A program made the translations under genes and the position numbers. The notes below the pieces were generated by a model. It did no database searches, was not told where the DNA came from, and worked only from the letters and a program-made list of their open reading frames with translations. A stretch of 11,132 bases of DNA from a bacterium (lineage in GTDB: Bacteria > UBA9089 > CG2-30-40-21 > SBAY01). Position 1 is the first letter of the stretch, and each line of letters opens with the position of its first letter. Shown here in pieces: positions 2,630-11,057 of this stretch. The stretch lies in NCBI GenBank assembly GCA_040757115.1, contig JBFLYA010000030.1, forward strand, positions 1 through 11,132, given 5' to 3'.

Positions 2630-5600
2630 ATGGATAAAATAGGTTCTGTATTAGTTATTGGTGGTGGTATTGGTGGGATGCAGGCATCACTTGATCTGGC
2701 AGATGCCGGCTTTAAAGTCTATCTGGTCGAAGATAAACCTGCCATTGGTGGCAAGATGTCTCAACTGGATAAAACCTTCCCGACCAATGATTGCTCGATG
2801 TGTATTATGGCGCCACGGCTGGTAGATGTGGCTGGAAATCTAAATATCGAACTTTTGACAACATCAGAGGTTGTTGGTCTGGAAGGACAACCGGGTAATT
2901 TCAAGGTTGAAGTCCGTAGAAAACCCAGATATGTAGATACATCAAAATGCACCGGCTGTGGTGATTGTGCCAAAAAATGTCCGGTAGAGATGCCAGATGA
3001 ATTTAATATGGGAATGAGCAATAGAAAGGCAATCTATAAACTCTATGCTCAGGCTGTTCCAGGTGCCTTTGCTATTGATAAAAGAGGGACTTCTCCCTGT
3101 AAGGCAAAATGTCCTGTAGGTATCAGTGTGCAGGGATATGTTGCCCTGATTGCTCAAGGTAAATACCAGGAAGCCCTTAACTTAATCCGTCAAAAAAATC
3201 CATTTCCTGGCATTTGCGGCAGGGTTTGTAACCATCCCTGTGAAACAGAATGTATGCGTGGTAAAGTAGATGAACCAATTGCTATCGCCAGTTTGAAGCG
3301 TTTTGTGGTTGATTATGAGTCAGAGGTTAGAGGACAGAGGACAGAATTTATTTTTTCCCGAGTCCCGAGTCCCGAGTCCCGAGTCCCGAGTAAAGTGGCT
3401 ATTATCGGCTCAGGTCCAGCAGGCTTGACTGCGGCTTATGACCTAACATTGGCTGGTTACCAGGTAACGGTATTTGAAAAACTGCCAGTGGCTGGTGGTA
3501 TGATGCGGGTTGGAATACCAGACTATCGATTACCATCTAAGATAATTCAGGCAGAAATCGACGCTATTCTCTCAGCTGGTGTAGAACTCAGGCTTAATAC
3601 CCCGGTAGAATCCCTTGACCAACTTAAAACAGAGGGTTTTGAAGCAATATTAATTGCCGTTGGTGCTCATATCAATAAAAAAATGGGTGTGCCAGGAGAA
3701 GAATTAGATGGTGTCCTGTCAGGAGTAGATTTTCTGCGTGATATAAATCTTGGGCAGAAGGTTAATCTGGGAAATAAAGTAGCCATAGTTGGTGGTGGCA
3801 ATGTGGCTATAGATGCCGCCAGAGTAGCAGTGCGGTTGGGTGTCCGAGAGGTTAGCATTATTTATCGACGCTCCCGCAATGAAATGCCAGCAGACCCACA
3901 TGAAATTATTGCCGCAGAGGAAGAAGGGATTAAGATTCATTTTCTCACTAACCCAACTAAGATTATCGGTAAGGATGGTAAGGTCGTGGCTGTGGAATGT
4001 ATTAAAATGGGACTGGGTGAACCAGATGAATCCGGAAGAAGACGGCCAGTGCCAATCCCTGATTCTGAATTTGTCATAGAGATTGATAATATTATCCCGG
4101 CTATAGGGCAAACCTCTGACCTTGAATTAGTAAAAAACCAGGTAAAAGCAACTAAGTGGGGAACAATTGAAGTTGACCCCGAAACCCTCGCTACTAATCA
4201 GGAAGGTGTTTTTGCTGGTGGAGATGTAGTCACGGGACCAGCCTTTGTGGTTGATGCTATTGCCGCTGGGCATATAGCGGCTGAGTCTATTTCAAGATAC
4301 TTGCAAGGTCAAGACCTTAAGGTAGATAGAAAAAAAACATCTGCTTCTGTAGTTAAAGAAGTCCCACTTGATAAGGTTAAGAAAACAGCTCGCCAGAGGA
4401 TGTCGACTCTAAGTATCGAAAAAAGGACTGCTAATTTTAACGAGGTTGAGTTGGGATTTACAGAGGAGCAGGCAAGGGCTGAGGCACAAAGATGTCTTTC
4501 CTGCGGTATCTGCTCGGAATGCTATGAATGCGAACAAGTCTGTCAGGCAAAGGCAATAAACCATCAAGAGGTAGAGTTCACCCAAAAGATAGAGGTTGGA
4601 GCGATTATTCTGGCGCCAGGTTTTGAAACTATTTCACCACAGGTGCGTGAAGAATACGGCTATGGCTATTACCCAAATGTCATTACCAGCCTGGAATTTG
4701 AACGATACCTGTCTGCCTCAGGACCTACTACTGGACATGTGCAGAGACCATCAGATGGCAATGAACCAAAAAAGGTAGCCTGGATACAATGTGTAGGCTC
4801 TCGCGATGAAGAACATAGATACTGTTCTTCAGTTTGCTGTATGTATGCTACGAAAGAGGCTATCATTGCTAAAGAACATTCCCCAGCACTTGAACCAACT
4901 ATATTCTTCATAGATGTGCGGGCTTATGGTAAAGGATTTGATTCATACTATGAACGGGCAAAAGAACAATATGGAGTCAAGTATGTGCGATGTATGGTCT
5001 CAACCGTCAAAGAACATCCAGTGACTAAAGACCTAATCATTCGCTATCTAAACTCCGCCAATGAGTTAGTGGAAGAAGAATTTGAGATGGTGGTGCTGTC
5101 TGTAGGTTTAAAACCTTCTGCTAAAACTTATGAACTATCAAAGAATCTTGGTGTAGAGCTAAATCAGTATCAATTTTGTGCCACCTCTACCTGGACACCA
5201 ATGGCTACTTCTCGTGAAGGCATCTATGTCTGTGGTGCGGTTAGTGAACCAAAGGATATTCCAGAAACGGTTATGCAGGCATCTGGGGCGGCTGGATGTG
5301 TAGGCGAATTACTTGCGGATGTCCGTGGTAGCCTGATGGCTAAGAAAGAATATCCGCCAGAGATAGATGTCAGCGGACTGCTGCCCAGAATTGGTGTTTT
5401 TGTCTGTCGATGTGGGATAAATATTGCTGGAGTAGTTAATGTGCCAGCAGTCGTTGAACAGGCTAAAACTCTGCCTAATGTAGTTTGTGTAGAGGAAAAG
5501 ATATATGTCTGCTCTCAGGATTCACAAGCTTTAATTCGCGATAAAATCAAAGAACATAATTTAAATCGGGTGGTGGTTGCCTCCTGCACCCCACGAACCC

Positions 5601-7240
5601 ATGAAAGGCTATTTCAAGATACAATTCGGACAGCAGGTTTAAATAAATATTTATTTGAGATGGCTAATATCCGTGACCAATGCAGTTGGGTGCATAGTTC
5701 AAACTATGAAGGGGCGACTGAGAAAGCCAAAAAACTGATAGCAATGGCTGTTGCTCGTGCATCGTTACTTGAACCACTATACTTAATCCCGATGGACATC
5801 ACCCGCAAAGGATTGGTCATTGGTGGTGGAGTATCTGGAATGGTATCTGCCCTCTCATTAGCCGAGCAAGGATTTGAGGTTGAACTTGTTGAAAGAGAAG
5901 CTGAGCTTGGTGGAAATGCAAGACATCTCTATTTCACCTTAGAAGGCGATAACCCACAAGTGTATCTTAAATCTGTGATAGAAAAGGTTACCGCGCATAA
6001 GTCGATTAAAATCCACCTGTCGAGTGAAATAACGAAGTTCTCAGGACATGTCGGGCATTTTAAATCTGAAATCCGAAATCCGAAATCCGAAATGACTATT
6101 GAACACGGCGTGGTGATTGTAGCCACAGGTGGTGTAGAACACCAACCAACAGAATATTTATACGGCGAGGACGAAAGAGTAATCACACAACTTGAATTAG
6201 AAAAGAGGTTAGCGAATCCCGAATCCCGAGCCCCGAGCCCCGAGTCCCGAGTCCCGAAGACCATCGTTATGATTCAATGTGTTGGTTCTCGCACCAGTGA
6301 ACGACCGTATTGCAGTCGGGTATGTTGTAGTCAGGCGATAAAAAATGCCTTGAAAATCAAAGAGATAAGTCCCAAAACACAGATTTATATTCTCTATCGA
6401 GACATAAGGACTTACGGGTTCCGTGAAGATTACTATCGCCAGGCACGAGAGGCGGGAGTAATCTTTATTCGATACGAAGAAGATGCAAAACCAAAGGTCA
6501 GAAGACAGAGGACAGATGAGAAAGGGGGAAACGGAGAAGGAGAGGAGACACGAGGCACTATACCTGAATTTTCAGCCATTAGCCATCAGCCTATTTTCCC
6601 GAGCCCCGAGCCCCGAGCCCCGAGCCCCGAGCCCCGAGCCCCGAGCCCCGAGTCCCGAGCCCCGAGCCCCGATTTTGAGTCAGAAATCCGAAATCCCCTG
6701 GAAGTAGAAGTTGTTGACCCGATAATGGGAGAGAAATTGGTTTTGAATCCGGATTTGGTGGTGCTGGCACCGGCTATTCTTTCAGACCCAGGAAATGAAA
6801 GTTTATCTCCATTGTTGAAGGTAACATTGAATGCCGAGCGATTTTTCCTTGAAGCGCATATGAAACTTCGGCCAGTAGATTTTGCTTCAGAGGGTATGTT
6901 TTTGTGTGGGCTGGCACATTCACCCAAGCTGATTGAAGAGTCCATCGCCCAGTCACAAGCCGCCGCTGGTCGAGCGGCTACTATCCTGGCAAAAGACCAC
7001 TTAGATGTAGGTGGAGTTGTTTCGGTTATTGACGCAAATAAATGCGTTGTCTGTCTAACCTGTATCCGTATGTGTCCGTATGATGTGCCGTTTATTAACG
7101 AAAAAGGCGCTGCAGAAATCGAAGCGGCTAAATGCCAGGGTTGTGGGATATGCGCCTCAGAATGCCCGGCTAAGGCTATCCAATTGATGCATTATAAAGA
7201 CAACCAAATACTGGCTAAAACAGAGGCATTATTTGTTTAA
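2630..7240 (+). CDS. HdrA-GltD-HdrA fusion: CoB-CoM heterodisulfide reductase subunit A-like polyferredoxin flavoprotein
   Basis: This is a 1536-residue cytoplasmic electron-transfer flavoprotein. Domain order: HdrA N-terminus with FAD motif GGGIGG (11-16) and CSMC (55-58); a 4Fe-4S motif (C107, C110, C113, C117); a GltD-like NAD(P)H module with cluster cysteines C157, C161, C196, C200, C204 and C208, FAD motif GSGPAG (260-265), GGGN (388-391) and YRRSRNEMP; a cysteine-rich ferredoxin (C622-C638); the HdrA block WIQCVGSRD with YCSSVCC (718-737). A second HdrA copy follows with VCRCG (C926, C928), FAD motif GGGVSG (1065-1070) and another CVGSR/CSRVCC. It ends in two ferredoxin motifs (C1472-C1482, C1502-C1512). 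It probably moves electrons between NAD(P)H, flavin and ferredoxin, perhaps by flavin-based bifurcation; the partner is unknown, since no hdrB, hdrC or mvhD is adjacent. AGGAG at 2618-2622 fixes the start. The unusual part is low-complexity peptides at 231-254, 1145-1155, 1196-1209 and about 1291-1356, encoded by heptanucleotide repeats, mostly between conserved blocks. The frame stays open throughout, so the gene appears functional. Confidence 0.9.
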   Translation: MDKIGSVLVIGGGIGGMQASLDLADAGFKVYLVEDKPAIGGKMSQLDKTFPTNDCSMCIMAPRLVDVAGNLNIELLTTSEVVGLEGQPGNFKVEVRRKPRYVDTSKCTGCGDCAKKCPVEMPDEFNMGMSNRKAIYKLYAQAVPGAFAIDKRGTSPCKAKCPVGISVQGYVALIAQGKYQEALNLIRQKNPFPGICGRVCNHPCETECMRGKVDEPIAIASLKRFVVDYESEVRGQRTEFIFSRVPSPESRVPSKVAIIGSGPAGLTAAYDLTLAGYQVTVFEKLPVAGGMMRVGIPDYRLPSKIIQAEIDAILSAGVELRLNTPVESLDQLKTEGFEAILIAVGAHINKKMGVPGEELDGVLSGVDFLRDINLGQKVNLGNKVAIVGGGNVAIDAARVAVRLGVREVSIIYRRSRNEMPADPHEIIAAEEEGIKIHFLTNPTKIIGKDGKVVAVECIKMGLGEPDESGRRRPVPIPDSEFVIEIDNIIPAIGQTSDLELVKNQVKATKWGTIEVDPETLATNQEGVFAGGDVVTGPAFVVDAIAAGHIAAESISRYLQGQDLKVDRKKTSASVVKEVPLDKVKKTARQRMSTLSIEKRTANFNEVELGFTEEQARAEAQRCLSCGICSECYECEQVCQAKAINHQEVEFTQKIEVGAIILAPGFETISPQVREEYGYGYYPNVITSLEFERYLSASGPTTGHVQRPSDGNEPKKVAWIQCVGSRDEEHRYCSSVCCMYATKEAIIAKEHSPALEPTIFFIDVRAYGKGFDSYYERAKEQYGVKYVRCMVSTVKEHPVTKDLIIRYLNSANELVEEEFEMVVLSVGLKPSAKTYELSKNLGVELNQYQFCATSTWTPMATSREGIYVCGAVSEPKDIPETVMQASGAAGCVGELLADVRGSLMAKKEYPPEIDVSGLLPRIGVFVCRCGINIAGVVNVPAVVEQAKTLPNVVCVEEKIYVCSQDSQALIRDKIKEHNLNRVVVASCTPRTHERLFQDTIRTAGLNKYLFEMANIRDQCSWVHSSNYEGATEKAKKLIAMAVARASLLEPLYLIPMDITRKGLVIGGGVSGMVSALSLAEQGFEVELVEREAELGGNARHLYFTLEGDNPQVYLKSVIEKVTAHKSIKIHLSSEITKFSGHVGHFKSEIRNPKSEMTIEHGVVIVATGGVEHQPTEYLYGEDERVITQLELEKRLANPESRAPSPESRVPKTIVMIQCVGSRTSERPYCSRVCCSQAIKNALKIKEISPKTQIYILYRDIRTYGFREDYYRQAREAGVIFIRYEEDAKPKVRRQRTDEKGGNGEGEETRGTIPEFSAISHQPIFPSPEPRAPSPEPRAPSPESRAPSPDFESEIRNPLEVEVVDPIMGEKLVLNPDLVVLAPAILSDPGNESLSPLLKVTLNAERFFLEAHMKLRPVDFASEGMFLCGLAHSPKLIEESIAQSQAAAGRAATILAKDHLDVGGVVSVIDANKCVVCLTCIRMCPYDVPFINEKGAAEIEAAKCQGCGICASECPAKAIQLMHYKDNQILAKTEALFV
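3329..3391. repeat. Heptamer repeat array 1 in the HdrA-GltD gene (AGAGGAC x2, CCCGAGT x5)
   Basis: Two AGAGGAC units (3329-3342) are followed by five perfect CCCGAGT units (3357-3391). They encode residues from about 234 to 254, including RVPSPESRVPS. The array lies in the linker between the GltD iron-sulfur helical domain (ending LKRFVVDYESE) and the FAD-binding strand KVAIIGSGPAG. In ordinary GltD proteins this place is a short variable linker, so the insert should be tolerated. Confidence 0.9.
6062..6089. repeat. Heptamer repeat array 2 in the HdrA-GltD gene (AAATCCG x4)
   Basis: Four units (one AAATCTG and three AAATCCG) run in tandem and encode K1145 to about E1154 as KSEIRNPKSE. The position is a strand-connecting loop before TIEHGVVIVATGG in the second HdrA flavin domain. 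It is less clear than for arrays 1, 3 and 4 that the whole stretch is an insertion, because a short polar loop is normal here. Confidence 0.8.
6214..6255. repeat. Heptamer repeat array 3 in the HdrA-GltD gene (GARYCCC x6)
   Basis: Six consecutive units (GAATCCC twice, GAGCCCC twice, GAGTCCC twice) total 42 nt, exactly 14 codons (N1196-P1209, NPESRAPSPESRVP). They fall between the helix LELEKRLA and the conserved strand KTIVMIQCVGSR. Removing them leaves LELEKRLA-KTIVMIQCVGSR, which reads as a normal HdrA junction. Confidence 0.9.
6500..6697. repeat. Composite heptamer repeat array 4 in the HdrA-GltD gene
   Basis: Four different 7-nt families occur in one stretch. They are AGARGAC x2 (6500-6513), CAGCCAT-like x3 (6573-6593), GAGYCCC x10 (6601-6670) and AAATCCG/AAATCCC (6684-6697). 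They encode about 66 residues (R1291-P1356) rich in Pro, Ser, Glu and Arg, with the period-7 peptide PEPRAPS. The insert separates YEEDAKPKV from LEVEVVDPIMGEKL, two segments that are normally close together in HdrA. The reverse strand is also open across the GAGYCCC part, which explains long spurious antisense frames there. Confidence 0.9.
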
Positions 7241-7347: not shown

Positions 7348-7944
7348 TCAGTTTAACATATCCAGTGGACTTTGTACTCCCATCCCACCCTTATTGATAA
7401 CATGTGTATAAATCATGGTCGTGGATACATCCTTATGACCGAGTAATTCTTGCACGGTGCGAATATCATATCCTTTCTCCAGCAGGTGTGTAGCAAAGCT
7501 ATGTCGAAATGTATGAGGGCTGACTGGTTTTGAAAGACCAACGGCACGAGCAGCACTATAGATTGCTCTTTGCAGCCCACTTTCATTGACATGATGCCGA
7601 TGCATCTTGTCACTACGCGGGTCTTTAGATATCTTCTTTGATGGGAAAACATATTGCCAACCCCATTCTTTACCTGCATTAGGATATTTCCGCTCTAACG
7701 CAAAAGGCAGATGTACCTCTCCAACACCATTCTTGAGGTCTTGTTCATGCAATGCCTTAACCCGTTTTAGATGTTCTGATAGCAATGGTTTTAAACTTTC
7801 CGGTAGCATAGTTACTCTATCCTTCATTCCTTTTCCATCTCGCACAATCACTTGATTCCGAGCAAAATCAATATCCTTAACCCGCAAACGAATACATTCC
7901 ATCAATCGTAGTCCACAGCCGTAAATAAGTTTCCACCTGTGCAA
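7348..7944 (-). pseudogene. intI: Integron integrase (IntI family tyrosine recombinase), N-terminally truncated
   Basis: The 198-residue frame matches the catalytic domain of integron integrases. It has R13 (in CGLRLME), H144 and R147 (in [10 protein letters not shown]), H170 and the nucleophile Y179 (in STTMIYTH). The R13-H144 and R13-Y179 distances, 131 and 166 residues, equal those of R146-H277 and R146-Y312 in IntI1. The IntI-specific extra helix segment is present ([26 protein letters not shown] region, about 77-102), which separates IntI from XerC/D. IntI1 has about 133 residues before its first arginine in excess of what is present here, so the core-binding domain is gone. Homology starts at KLIYGCGLR (residue 5). 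The only start is TTG at 7944, inside the inverted repeat of the neighbouring palindromic element and just after an in-frame TAA. Orientation opposite to the cassettes is normal for an integron. It is very probably inactive. Confidence 0.88.
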
Positions 7945-8117
7945 TTAGAAATAAAAGGATAATTGATTAAACAGATTACATTTTTTATTGTAAGCGGATT
8001 AAACGGATTGAGCGGATTTTTTTTATTTCTTTTTCCGCTAAATCCGTTAAATCCGCTTACTAAATCCACCCGCTTACTATTAAAAATCTGCTTCCTTAAT
8101 TTTCTACCTGCACAGGT
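7935..8117. mobile_element. MITE-like palindromic element that truncates intI (gcggatt hairpin, copy 2)
   Basis: The 183-bp AT-rich, non-coding stretch is bounded by perfect 9-bp inverted repeats ACCTGTGCA (7935-7943) and TGCACAGGT (8109-8117). These extend to about 20 of 25 matching positions. Inside is a long hairpin with arms 7990-8016 (beginning GTAAGCGGATTAAACGG) and 8034-8060 (ending AAATCCGCTTAC), matching at 25 of 27 positions around a T-rich loop. The same arm sequence occurs at 2476-2547. Length, terminal inverted repeats and absence of coding capacity are MITE-like, but no clear target-site duplication was seen. IntI homology stops within three bases of the left end. Confidence 0.6.
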
Positions 8118-8128
8118 CGAAAAAATTT

Positions 8129-8265: not shown

Positions 8266-8316
8266 ATAATGCAGTAATATAAAACTGCTAATAGGCAGTA
8301 TAATCTAAGGTTAAGC
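8266..8316 (+). other. attI: Putative attI recombination site
   Basis: The second copy of the 45-nt repeat (8266-8310) runs directly into GTTAAGC (8310-8316), a perfect GTTRRRY core site, with the expected cleavage between G8310 and T8311. Within it GCAGT (8271-8275) and ACTGC (8284-8288) form an inverted pair, and a further GCAGTA follows at 8295-8300, resembling integrase-binding boxes. Everything to the right is cassette material, everything to the left is integron platform. The call is inferred from position and core sequence. Confidence 0.6.
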
Positions 8317-8413
8317 GGCACGCCCGGTGGGCGGGCCGCTTAACCCATGCAATGGAGCTGACAAAAATGCGGCATAACAAGTTATGCCGACATTTTTGCA
8401 GCTCATCGCGTCG
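8311..8413 (+). mobile_element. Integron cassette C1, without a gene
   Basis: A 103-bp cassette consists of a 27-bp body and an attC site. Its first bases TTAAGCGGC are perfectly complementary to GCCGCTTAA at its own R'' side, as required for a circular cassette. Bases 8310-8346 can therefore fold into a 16-bp stem with a single mismatch. There is no room for a gene. The first 16 bases are identical to those of cassette C5. Confidence 0.7.
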
Positions 8414-8419
8414 TTAGCC
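8338..8419 (+). other. attC: attC site of cassette C1
   Basis: R'' GCTTAAC (8338-8344) matches RYYYAAC. R' GTTAGCC (8413-8419) fits GTTRRRY except at one position. The outer arms ATGCAATGGAGCTG and CAGCTCATCGCG pair imperfectly. The centre is a perfect hairpin around CGGCATAAC/GTTATGCCG, flanked by AAAAATG/CATTTTT. At 82 bp it is shorter and of a different type from the other three. Confidence 0.8.
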
Positions 8420-9204
8420 CGCATATAACAAGGAGCGAGCGATTCAGACAAAATGAATACGATACAGACACTCACTCAACGAGTCCAAAAGACACAACAT
8501 GGGTTTTTGGACATTCAAAAAGCAGCAGATGAAGTAGTAGCTGGGCACGCTGCCAAAGAGAGCCTTTGCATTGTCAAGCAGCTATTCGCTTCAGAGATAT
8601 ACCAAGCACGCTCACTGGCAACCTTCATTTTGGGCCGATTGGCGGCCAACTCGAACGAAAGCCTCGATTTTCTGAAACGGCGTGTCAGCGGAGACAATGA
8701 TTGGCGTGTGCAGGAGATTCTGGCAAAAGCCTTTGACAGGTACTGTGCTGACGTTGGCTATGAACAAGCACTCCCTGTCATCAAGGAATGGTTGGCAGAT
8801 TCCCAACCTAACGTGCGACGGGCAGTCACAGAAGGGCTGAGAATATGGACAGGACGCCCTTACTTTCATGACCATCCAGAAGTTGCCATTCAGTTGTTGA
8901 GCCAGCTTCGAAACGATGAGAGTGAATATGTACGGAAGTCTGTTGGGAATGCTTTGCGTGATATAAGCAAAAAGCACAAGGAGTTAGTAAGAATCGAATT
9001 GCAGCGATGGGACATTGCAAACAAGCGCATTGAGCAAACTCACAAACTGGCAAGTAAGTTCTTGCAAAACAATGGTGCAGGCTAACCCGGCGCTGCACCT
9101 GACTGCGAGGGCTGTGCCGTAATTAGAGTTTTGTGGTATCTCAAGCTTTTATCTTGTTTACAAAGTTTGGTGGTAATCCGCCCCGCAGCAGGTGAGCTCT
9201 ATCG
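8414..9204 (+). mobile_element. Integron cassette C2 (HEAT-repeat gene)
   Basis: The 791-bp cassette runs from the cleavage point of attC1 to that of attC2. Its start TTAGCC is complementary to GGCTAA of its own R'' box. It holds one gene that fills the cassette in the usual orientation. Confidence 0.8.
8453..9085 (+). CDS. HEAT-repeat protein of the AlkD/AlkC-like DNA alkylation repair superfamily
   Basis: The 210-residue, wholly helical protein lacks a signal peptide or membrane segment. The central and C-terminal parts carry WRVQEILAKAFD (about 82-93), NVRRAVTEGLRIWTGRPYF (about 121-139) and SEYVRKSVGNALRDISK (about 159-175). These resemble the repeat signatures of AlkD/AlkC-type alkylpurine glycosylases and their uncharacterised relatives ('VRRAvsEGxRxW...RPyfk..P..ai.LL..L..D.SEYVRkSVgNxLrDisK'). 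Known members release alkylated bases such as 3- or 7-methylpurines, but many relatives lack shown activity, so repair is inferred. AAGGAG (8430-8435) lies an unusual 17 nt from the ATG, with no better start nearby. The stop codon is inside the R'' box of attC2, as is common in cassettes. GC content looks higher than in neighbouring genes, which suggests separate origin. Confidence 0.7.
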   Translation: MNTIQTLTQRVQKTQHGFLDIQKAADEVVAGHAAKESLCIVKQLFASEIYQARSLATFILGRLAANSNESLDFLKRRVSGDNDWRVQEILAKAFDRYCADVGYEQALPVIKEWLADSQPNVRRAVTEGLRIWTGRPYFHDHPEVAIQLLSQLRNDESEYVRKSVGNALRDISKKHKELVRIELQRWDIANKRIEQTHKLASKFLQNNGAG

Positions 9205-9210
9205 TTAGGC
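9080..9210 (+). other. attC: attC site of cassette C2
   Basis: R'' GGCTAAC (9080-9086, one mismatch to RYYYAAC) and R' GTTAGGC (9204-9210, perfect GTTRRRY) bound a 131-bp imperfect palindrome. Inner arms CACCTGACTGCGAGGG and CCCCGCAGCAGGTGAG pair with bulges. The AT-rich centre shares the word AGTTTTGTGG and its general layout with attC3 and attC4, so the three belong to one long attC family. Confidence 0.85.
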
Positions 9211-9274
9211 TCTATGAAAGTGCTACTCTACATAATGCTGATTATCATACAAACATACAAAACGAGAAATTAAA

Positions 9275-9541
9275 ATGGATAAATATGAAGAATTAATGAT
9301 AAAAATTCTACGAGGGACATCTGATGCTAATATCCATTTTTCAGAGCTATGTCACTTGTTGAAAAAATTTGGCTTTGATGAACGAATCAAGGGTGACCAT
9401 CATATTTTTACAAAAGATGGTATTGAAGAAATACTGAATTTGCAACCCAAAGGATCAAAGTCTAAACCGTATCAGGTAAAGCAAGTTCGTAATCTCATCC
9501 TTAAATATAAATTGAATTTGGAGGAAGAAGATGTTGGATAA
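9275..9541 (+). CDS. hicA: HicA-family toxin (mRNA interferase)
   Basis: The 88-residue protein has the double-stranded-RNA-binding-like HicA fold pattern: N-terminal helix, FSELCHLLKKFGF (22-34), then GDHHIF (40-45) containing the conserved histidine (H42/H43) of the active site. It continues with a strand and a C-terminal helix around VKQVRNLILKY. HicA toxins cut mRNA and tmRNA and so arrest growth. The gene begins at ATG 9275 after only a weak GAG-type ribosome site, in keeping with low toxin expression. It overlaps hicB by 11 nt. The leader holds TGCTACTCTA (9221-9230), the same ten bases as at the candidate Pc -10 region. Confidence 0.85.
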   Translation: MDKYEELMIKILRGTSDANIHFSELCHLLKKFGFDERIKGDHHIFTKDGIEEILNLQPKGSKSKPYQVKQVRNLILKYKLNLEEEDVG

Positions 9542-9743
9542 ATATGAAATAATTGTCTATTGGAGCGAGGAAGATGAGGCATTTATTGCTGAGGTACCTG
9601 AATTGCCGGGTTGTATGGCAGATGGCGAGACATATCAAAGAGCCATTTCAAACGCTGAGATTATTATTCAGGAGTGGATTGAGACTGCAAAAGAATTAGG
9701 GCGATTAATTCCACAACCTAAAGGTCGATTAGTATATGCCTAA
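9531..9743 (+). CDS. hicB: HicB-family antitoxin, short form
   Basis: The 70-residue protein has the partial RNase H-like HicB domain: YEIIVYWSEEDEAFIAEVPELPGC (4-27, written YEIIVYW...PELPGC), the GET-turn at about 32-34 and the AISNAEIIIQEWI helix (39-51). It binds HicA and blocks its active site. No C-terminal HTH or ribbon-helix-helix DNA-binding domain is present, so it may not autoregulate as longer HicB proteins do. GGAGG at 9520-9524, six bases before the ATG and inside hicA, is a strong ribosome site that favours antitoxin excess. The stop TAA is part of the R'' box of attC3. Confidence 0.88.
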   Translation: MLDKYEIIVYWSEEDEAFIAEVPELPGCMADGETYQRAISNAEIIIQEWIETAKELGRLIPQPKGRLVYA

Positions 9744-9869
9744 CAATTCGTTACAGTTGACGGCGGGGGACTGTGCCGTGGTCAAAGTTTTGTGGTCTCT
9801 CAAAGTTTTATCTTGCTATCAAACTTTTGTGGTAATTCTCCCCGCCGCACCTGAACTTTATCGTTAGAA
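9738..9869 (+). other. attC: attC site of cassette C3
   Basis: R'' GCCTAAC (9738-9744) matches RYYYAAC. R' GTTAGAA (9863-9869) fits GTTRRRY apart from the last base. Arms around GACGGCGGGG (9759-9768) and CCCCGCCGCACC (9840-9851) pair strongly. From 9754 to 9866 the sequence is identical to attC4 except at one of 113 positions. Length 132 bp, similar to the long VCR-type sites of Vibrio superintegrons. Confidence 0.88.
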
Positions 9870-10105
9870 AACATACAGAGGAACATCCAAGATTGACAAA
9901 GTATCCAATCTGATGAATGGACGGGAGAAAAAACATAAAGGTCTCTACCGGGGTTCAATCCTTGAAAACTGAATAGTTCTTATAAGTTTACTGAAATGAG
10001 ATAGTTGGGCAGGATAGAAGAAAGAAAGAGAAAAAACGGCGAAGAAGTGAAAAAATCGGTGAAGGATAAGAGCCGCTAACAAAAATATTGGGAGGTTGAT
10101 TTCAA

Positions 10106-10345
10106 ATGGTTCAGGTTAGTGTAGATGAAATAAAACAAGATATATCGGTTTATCTTCCGTGTGTAGAAGTTGGAGAGACAGTTGTTATTATGAAGGAAGG
10201 TAAACCTCTGGCAGAATTCAAACCTGTTACTTCGACTTCTAAACGGCTACGACCCTTTGGATTATGCAGTGGAGAATTTATTGTGCCAAATGACTTTGAT
10301 GCTCCATTGCCAGAAAGTATCATTCAGGAGTTTGAAGGACAATGA
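10106..10345 (+). CDS. Phd/YefM-family antitoxin
   Basis: The 79-residue protein has the family's N-terminal fold: VSVDEIKQDISVYLPCVEVGE (4-24, first strand and helices) followed by the hairpin TVVIMKEGKPLAEFKP (25-40). The N-terminus should dimerise and bind operator DNA. The C-terminal tail, with RPFGLCSGEFIVPNDFDAPLP (49-69), is the part that wraps the PIN toxin in homologous pairs. GGGAGG (10090-10095) ten bases upstream sets the start. The stop overlaps the start of the next gene as ATGA, typical for coupled antitoxin-toxin expression. The downstream partner shows it belongs to a VapBC-like system rather than a Doc or YoeB one. Confidence 0.85.
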   Translation: MVQVSVDEIKQDISVYLPCVEVGETVVIMKEGKPLAEFKPVTSTSKRLRPFGLCSGEFIVPNDFDAPLPESIIQEFEGQ

Positions 10346-10740
10346 AACTACTTTTGGATACCCATATCTTTCTCTGGTTCATTAGCGGGGACAAACGATT
10401 ACCAGAAGGTATGCGAGATACCATTCGTGATCCTAATAACGAAGTCTACTTGAGTGTTGTGTCGCTATGGGAAGCGATCGTTAAATACCAGATAGGTAAA
10501 CTTTCCTTGCCTCAACCACCAAATGTCTATTTACCAATCCAACGCCAAAAACACCAAATAGATAGTTTATCTCTGGATGAAGCCAGTGTGTCTCAACTTG
10601 CTAATCTTGCTAAAATTCACCATGACCCATTTGATCGTATGCTGATTTGTCAAGCAATGGAACACGGTTTAACAATTGTTAGAGTAGATGATACCATTTG
10701 TAATTATTCTGTTTCTGTTCTAAACCGCATCTTAAAGTAG
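10342..10740 (+). CDS. vapC: VapC-like PIN-domain toxin RNase
   Basis: The 132-residue PIN-domain protein starts MKLLLDTHIFLWF, with D6 as the first metal ligand. It has E44 in SLWEAIVKYQIGKL, D95 and D98 in HHDPFDRMLICQA, and D116/D117 near the end in TIVRVDD. All acidic residues of the four-carboxylate site are therefore in place. Such toxins cleave tRNA or rRNA in a Mg-dependent manner, but the target here is unknown. The subgroup with DTHxxLW and HHDPFDR motifs is habitually paired with Phd/YefM-type antitoxins, as seen here. It has no ribosome site of its own beyond the 4-nt overlap, so translation is coupled. Length is normal and nothing suggests damage. Confidence 0.9.
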   Translation: MKLLLDTHIFLWFISGDKRLPEGMRDTIRDPNNEVYLSVVSLWEAIVKYQIGKLSLPQPPNVYLPIQRQKHQIDSLSLDEASVSQLANLAKIHHDPFDRMLICQAMEHGLTIVRVDDTICNYSVSVLNRILK

Positions 10741-10775
10741 ACTTAAATCTGATTTTGATGATGTTTTGCTTATGA

Positions 10776-10813
10776 ATTTGGGTGTTATCTGGTTTCTGGA
10801 TAACATCCCAAAT
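10776..10813 (+). other. Hairpin downstream of vapC
   Basis: ATTTGGGTGTTATC (10776-10789) pairs with GATAACATCCCAAAT (10799-10813) with a single bulged A and a 9-nt loop. It lies 36 nt after the vapC stop and could end or protect the toxin mRNA. It is not followed by a U tract, so I do not call it an intrinsic terminator. Confidence 0.5.
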
Positions 10814-10903
10814 GGGGAGATATGAAGGGCAAACCATGAATGTGGAATGCACAATAATTCGGTGAGGCAGAGGAAAAGGAAAAGACAGCGAATCAAAGCT
10901 TTT

Positions 10904-11035
10904 GTCTAACCCTGCATTGCAGTTGACGGCGGGGGACTCTGCCGTGGTCAAAGTTTTGTGGTCTCTCAAAGTTTTATCTTGCTATCAAACTTTTGTGGTA
11001 ATTCTCCCCGCCGCACCTGAACTTTATCGTTAAGC
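10904..11035 (+). other. attC: attC site of cassette C4
   Basis: R'' GTCTAAC (10904-10910) and R' GTTAAGC (11029-11035) both fit their consensus perfectly. The 113-bp interior (10920-11032) differs from attC3 at a single base (ACTCTGCC instead of ACTGTGCC). Cleavage is expected between G11029 and T11030. Confidence 0.88.
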
Positions 11036-11057
11036 GGCACGCCCGAGGAGGGAGCAG

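Follow-up and report, generated by a model that had tools for sequence, protein, structure and literature searches.

Heptanucleotide arrays in the loops of an HdrA-GltD fusion protein differ in family between related species

Four loops of a conserved HdrA-GltD fusion protein contain tandem arrays of seven-nucleotide units; relatives carry different heptamer families at the same loops, two of these loops have conserved their length, and tandem repetition in the genes of this genome is specific to a lag of 7. The host gene lies in the window, by which we mean the whole 11,132-nucleotide stretch analysed, on contig G000:C30. Genome G000 comprises 4.32 Mb in 462 contigs (99.87% complete, 1.4% contamination); our comparison drew on 19 genomes of its small phylum, in which G001 represents a sister species of the same genus. 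The data are metagenome-assembled genomes and sampled contigs with mechanical ORF calls, and several loci derive from related sequences, so that counts are not independent.

Arrays in the HdrA-GltD gene

The preliminary description had reported 7-nt tandem arrays at four sites of this gene, and TRF confirmed them, resolving seven period-7 arrays in four loops (Table 1); the sole remaining TRF row within the gene is a 10-nt unit in 2.2 copies at 7061-7082. By comparison, 480 kb of Markov-simulated G000 sequence yielded three arrays in all, not one of them with period 7. Measured against its G001 orthologue, the gene has a dS of 0.196 and a dN of 0.023 (dN/dS 0.116), and is thus under purifying selection and not decaying. 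The second array of site 1 runs to 11 units in G001, six more than in G000 and hence a multiple of three. Viral contigs held no homologue of the HdrA-GltD segment.

Table 1. The HdrA-GltD gene and its heptamer arrays, in window coordinates
Feature	Unit and copies	Position	Strand	Basis
HdrA-GltD fusion gene, 1536 aa, array host		2630..7240	+	ORF call
Site 1, first array, linker between Fer4_20 and FAD domain	CAGAGGA x3.6	3321..3345	+	TRF
Site 1, second array	CCCGAGT (TRF unit TCCCGAG) x5.1	3356..3391	+	TRF
KSE site	AAATCCG x4.6	6062..6093	+	TRF
Site 2	CCCGAGY (TRF unit CGAGTCC) x6.4	6213..6257	+	TRF
Site 3	AGGACAG x3.1	6495..6516	+	TRF
Site 3	TCAGCCA x2.9	6572..6591	+	TRF
Site 3	CCCGAGC x10.7	6598..6672	+	TRF
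Site 3, tail	AAATCCG, about two units	6678..6697	+	sequence, alignment

Whichever of the three frames of a strand is read, a heptamer array encodes the same cyclic heptapeptide. As had been claimed, AGAGGAC, CCCGAGY and AAATCCG contain no stop on either strand, while CAGCCAT is stop-free on the coding strand only; stop avoidance is a weak filter, though, since a random heptamer has a 69% chance of lacking stops on a given strand and a 50% chance of lacking them on both (at 37% G+C, 55% and 33%). G-quadruplex heptamers of the Xanthomonas/Nostoc type are marked by at least four G-tracts in register. Judged from their sequence, the CCCGAGY arrays have minus-strand G-tracts (GGGGCTC, GGGACTC) and may be of this type; AAATCCG, CAGCCAT and most of the relatives' units lack such tracts. 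Residues 1050-1460 were modelled with AlphaFold2 (mean pLDDT 82), and the fold matches HdrA structures; the model predicts a confident beta-hairpin for the KSE array, a lower-confidence loop for site 2 and disorder for site 3.

The same loops in relatives

Alignment of HdrA-GltD orthologues from the phylum at the DNA level bore out the proposal that arrays of several heptamer families sit in frame in the loops that separate conserved motifs. It also showed that the families change from species to species. At the KSE loop the units are AAATCCG in G000 and G001, AAATCGA in G003, GTCAGGT in G004 (degenerate in G006), GCGAATT in G005 and AGTCYAC in G007. Site 2 has at least six families among relatives, including CCCGAGY (G000, G001): CATTCCG occupies it in G003, G004 and G007, GATCCGC in G005 and CAGCTGT in G006, with AATTCGA (L155) and AATCGAA (L143) in more distant homologues. 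Site 1 carries AATGCGG in G003 and in a GltD homologue of G009, CAGTCCA in G018 and G006, and an AAAGTGA-like unit in G007. Arrays occur at the same site 2 in two Chloroflexota HdrA genes (L105, L108), in L108 at site 1 as well, and CCCGAGY occupies site 2 of two paralogues that are 54% identical.

Turnover can be seen between close relatives. Outside the loops G004 and G006 share 93.8% identity, but their site 2 arrays are wholly different (CATTCCG versus CAGCTGT); between G004 and G005 the entire site 2 array has changed at constant length. Near the contig end (G000:C30:25802-26474; L123 14802-15474) lies a recent copy of the gene's 3' part, truncated and frameshifted, with flanks 95.5% and 97.8% identical to the original and other heptamers at its site 3 (126 versus 153 nt), from which we conclude that turnover is fast relative to substitution. 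Array-internal divergence at site 3 between G000 and G001 appeared no higher than background. Coding-array pairs of these two genomes differ in length by 0 nt (five pairs) or 36 nt (one), noncoding pairs by 79 nt (one event seen via two arrays), 184 nt and 7 nt; the truncated copy has a length difference of 51 nt in this comparison.

The preliminary description had spoken of insertions, and the loop lengths, which we measured between fixed motifs, bear this out only in part. Relative to repeat-free homologues, site 1 of G000 is 28 aa long, 7 more than the mode of 21, and site 3 has some 59 extra residues (216 nt versus 39 nt in outgroups); the KSE loop equals the 13-aa mode and site 2 exceeds its mode by 5 aa. 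The KSE site is a pure replacement and site 2 a near-replacement, the native 15 residues being retained there by most relatives with arrays. Of 55 array-free homologues 31 have a KSE loop of 13 aa, and of 12 array-bearing ones 9 have 13-15 aa; for site 2 the figures are 45 of 61 with 15 aa and 9 of 13 with 14-15 aa. Two sequences are present twice in these counts. Among distinct sequences, the modal range holds 8/10 array-bearing and 48/54 array-free KSE loops, and 8/12 and 50/60 site 2 loops, with no significant difference in this share between array-bearing and array-free loops at either site. Length has also been altered in some loops, namely site 1, site 3, and KSE in G004 and G006. Equal length and composition in repeat-free homologues had been named beforehand as grounds for rejecting the insertion reading: length does agree at two sites, exactly at KSE and in the mode at site 2, but composition differs, the array-free homologues having unrelated peptides of the same length.

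Heptamers across the genome and the origin of the arrays

That several heptamer families should colonise one protein had looked unusual, but loop arrays are not peculiar to HdrA-GltD: besides the Chloroflexota HdrA genes they occur in other ORFs of G000 and in prolyl-tRNA synthetase. The latter, picked up through its array in G001, carries heptamers in a hinge loop, with GTCAGAA in G000 and G001, AATGCAS in G002 (degenerate in G003), GGTCAAG in G009 and GTCAGGR in G014; the hinge loop of the remaining 12 genomes has no array. The loop window measures 48 aa with an array against 45-47 aa in array-free genomes.

In DNA sampled irrespective of arrays, exact runs occur at lag 7 at 2.7 per 100 kb, at lag 8 at 0.6, at lags 9 and 10 at 0.2, and at lags 4, 5, 6, 11 and 13 not at all (lags 14 and 21 are multiples of 7). 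A mismatch-tolerant scan of 406 kb of G000 coding DNA found 19 matches at lag 7 and none at lags 4, 5, 8, 10, 11, 13, 16 or 17; 74 kb of non-ORF DNA gave 38 at lag 7, making the arrays about eleven times denser outside ORFs, a count inside and outside genes that the preliminary description had called for. If the coding sample is typical, genic arrays would number well over a hundred genome-wide. For CCCGAGY in three copies, G000 has 99 overlapping matches and its congener G001 has 54; a further 59 genomes have none. Sharing of families across phyla is suggestive only: 6 of 23 are exact matches (shuffled mean 1.9, maximum 6), and about 127 genomes from other phyla include 4 with AATNCGN in four copies, a pattern whose backward control has one match in all 146.

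Several larger arrangements accompany the arrays. CCCGAGY and AATTACC arrays alternate in a higher-order repeat of about 280 nt at L128 13346-16031 (G000:C77). Intergenic heptamer and octamer arrays are often paired in inverted orientation, with hairpin potential (L122 17500-18500; L184 2405-2499; L193 19056-19106), and one such inverted block is missing from the orthologous G001 site. A dispersed, genus-specific hairpin element, ATTTTCAGGRGAAACG-CATG(stem)CACAAA-GATGAAAAT, has a copy in the window at 2416-2470; we counted 34 across 740 kb of G000 and 11 across 396 kb of G001, and the other scanned loci had none. We rejected it as a general vehicle of the arrays, its boundary motif lying within 60 nt of only 7 of 31 CCCGAGY arrays.

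We consider the chances about even that heptameric SSRs arise and are homogenised in place, in a 7-nt register and under protein-level selection. Slippage in that register, or local template switching during replication or repair, would make and homogenise the arrays; genic arrays would persist only where the protein tolerates them, that is, in loops, with a net change that is a multiple of 3 and a unit stop-free on the coding strand; length-constrained loops would keep them only at near-native length; and fast turnover of families would leave one loop with different heptamers in different species. Both the act itself, slippage or template switching, and the reason for the number 7 are inferred; polymerase contact has been suggested as that reason (Mrazek 2007, as reported in PMC4679880). 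Four families argue for growth in place, having no other 20-nt copy in the genome: GATCCGC and GTCAGCT (of the CAGCTGT family), each in three copies, have a single locus in the 19 genomes, the HdrA genes of G005 and G006, and GTCAGGT in G004 and CATTCCG in G003 are confined to the HdrA gene, all by searches with exact 20-nt patterns, which miss short or degenerate donors. The in-place account is also supported by the lag-7 specificity in coding DNA, the different heptamers at shared loops, the modal lengths of KSE and site 2, the length comparison of G000 and G001 coding arrays, the parallel in prolyl-tRNA synthetase and the changed site 3 of the truncated copy.

The main competing account, possible though we give it clearly less weight, is ectopic copying, by which DNA ends with a few matching bases would copy units from high-copy arrays elsewhere, rejoin and replace the loop. 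KSE arrays do start on native bases (TTT AAATC, GAGTC, AAGTC), and of 25 coding families sampled in G000, 10 are identical to a noncoding one (shuffled mean 1.4), although the coding list is inflated by ORFs that stop-free arrays themselves create. The absence of any other 20-nt copy of GATCCGC or CAGCTGT from their own genomes speaks against it. CCCGAGY, however, is limited to G000 and G001, including loops of their HdrA genes and paralogues, and neither its dispersal through the genus nor its presence at site 2 of the two 54%-identical paralogues is predicted by a purely local origin; some ectopic spread of this family is needed there beside in-place growth, and both routes probably operate.

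As 7 is not divisible by 3, adding units one at a time would take an essential gene through frameshifts. This speaks against single-unit slippage as the sole process and leaves changes by multiples of three units, compensated indels or length-neutral copying. The last of these would do away with frameshift intermediates, and on one reading, which we think unlikely, copying in a 7-nt register overwrites tolerant coding sequence from local sequence in one or a few steps and accounts for the dominance of heptamers among bacterial repeats. That such rewriting, dedicated or incidental and with zero net change in length, made the present arrays seems to us more doubtful still. In several lineages whose units differ, the KSE array matches the native length exactly, and site 2 was switched wholesale between G004 and G005 at constant length; against this stand the changed lengths noted above (site 1, site 3, and KSE in G004 and G006), and ordinary indels with selection on loop length give the same picture. 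Selection for the heptapeptides as useful modules, hydrophilic hairpins or spacers, is very improbable: site 2 peptides are alike across families (NPHSAFR, DPRSAIR, NSKFEIR, NRKSEIE) and the modelled KSE hairpin would suit such a role, but repeat-free homologues fill the same lengths with unrelated peptides, and the arrays are far denser outside ORFs. We give almost no credence to writing by a reverse transcriptase (RT), telomerase-like or diversity-generating. G000 encodes an RT-TPR-primase fusion of the CRISPR-adaptation type and an AbiP2-type defence RT (L221 659-2986, L222 877-2370), but array-bearing G004, G007, G008, G009 and G010 have no RVT_1 match, and we rejected an RT as the common source on this ground.

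Known heptanucleotide repeats and other features of the window

Rickettsia palindromic elements, to which the arrays had been likened, are one longer palindromic sequence that adds an in-frame peptide to conserved proteins. The extra in-frame peptide is indeed shared, but here the unit varies by site and species and two sites replace instead of add; with no common element sequence at the sites, the parallel does not fit.

The comparison with bacterial heptamer repeats was correct, and the units belong to this known class: they are 7 nt long in at least three copies, over-represented relative to other lengths, dispersed through the genome and mostly outside genes. Heptanucleotides are over-represented among long bacterial SSRs in the account of Mrazek 2007 given in PMC4679880, and are described from Calothrix, Xanthomonas (GGGNATC) and Nostoc (GGGGAYT) in PMC4692102, according to which no detailed literature on heptameric repeats was available. 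Nostoc GGGGACT is one base from CGGGACT of G000. G000 differs from these cases in having many families in one genome, in conserved-protein loops whose family switches by species while loop length is largely kept. In Geobacter metallireducens, four-unit heptanucleotide elements (GGGACCG, 49 copies; PMC2700814) likewise lie within genes, some of which have more than one; they form a single family, read as predicted regulatory RNA, whereas our families are several and vary in copy number. TAACTGA repeats of Beggiatoaceae, cyanobacteria and Bacteroidetes (PMC4679880) are also heptamer arrays, patchy across phyla and limited in genes by stop codons; they lie mostly directly upstream of start codons, and the present coding arrays inside conserved proteins. 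A search of one open-access library found no earlier description of heptamers that switch family at the same site and keep length in essential or conserved proteins.

The dominance of heptamers among long-unit bacterial repeats is an old puzzle, which array-bearing loops make testable: in universal proteins like prolyl-tRNA synthetase, where homology, frame and length are known, aligned loops supply before-and-after pairs from which to date the process, read the choice of unit and test the behaviour of length. Repeat-derived loop sequence in such lineages can also mislead alignments and domain searches.

Downstream of the HdrA-GltD gene the window holds an integron integrase on the minus strand (7348-7944; TIGR02249, 327 bits against a cut-off of 265) that lacks its first ~120 residues. 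An insert at 7930-8120 with inverted 9-nt arrays (AGCGGATTA) and CACCTGTGCA/TGCACAGGT-like ends interrupts the integrase gene. The adjoining cassette region (~8300-11040) has attC-like inverted repeats of ~130 nt at 9082-9212, 9737-9870 and 10905-11037, and by eye its cassettes resemble HicAB-type (9275-9743) and VapBC/PIN-type (10106-10740) pairs.
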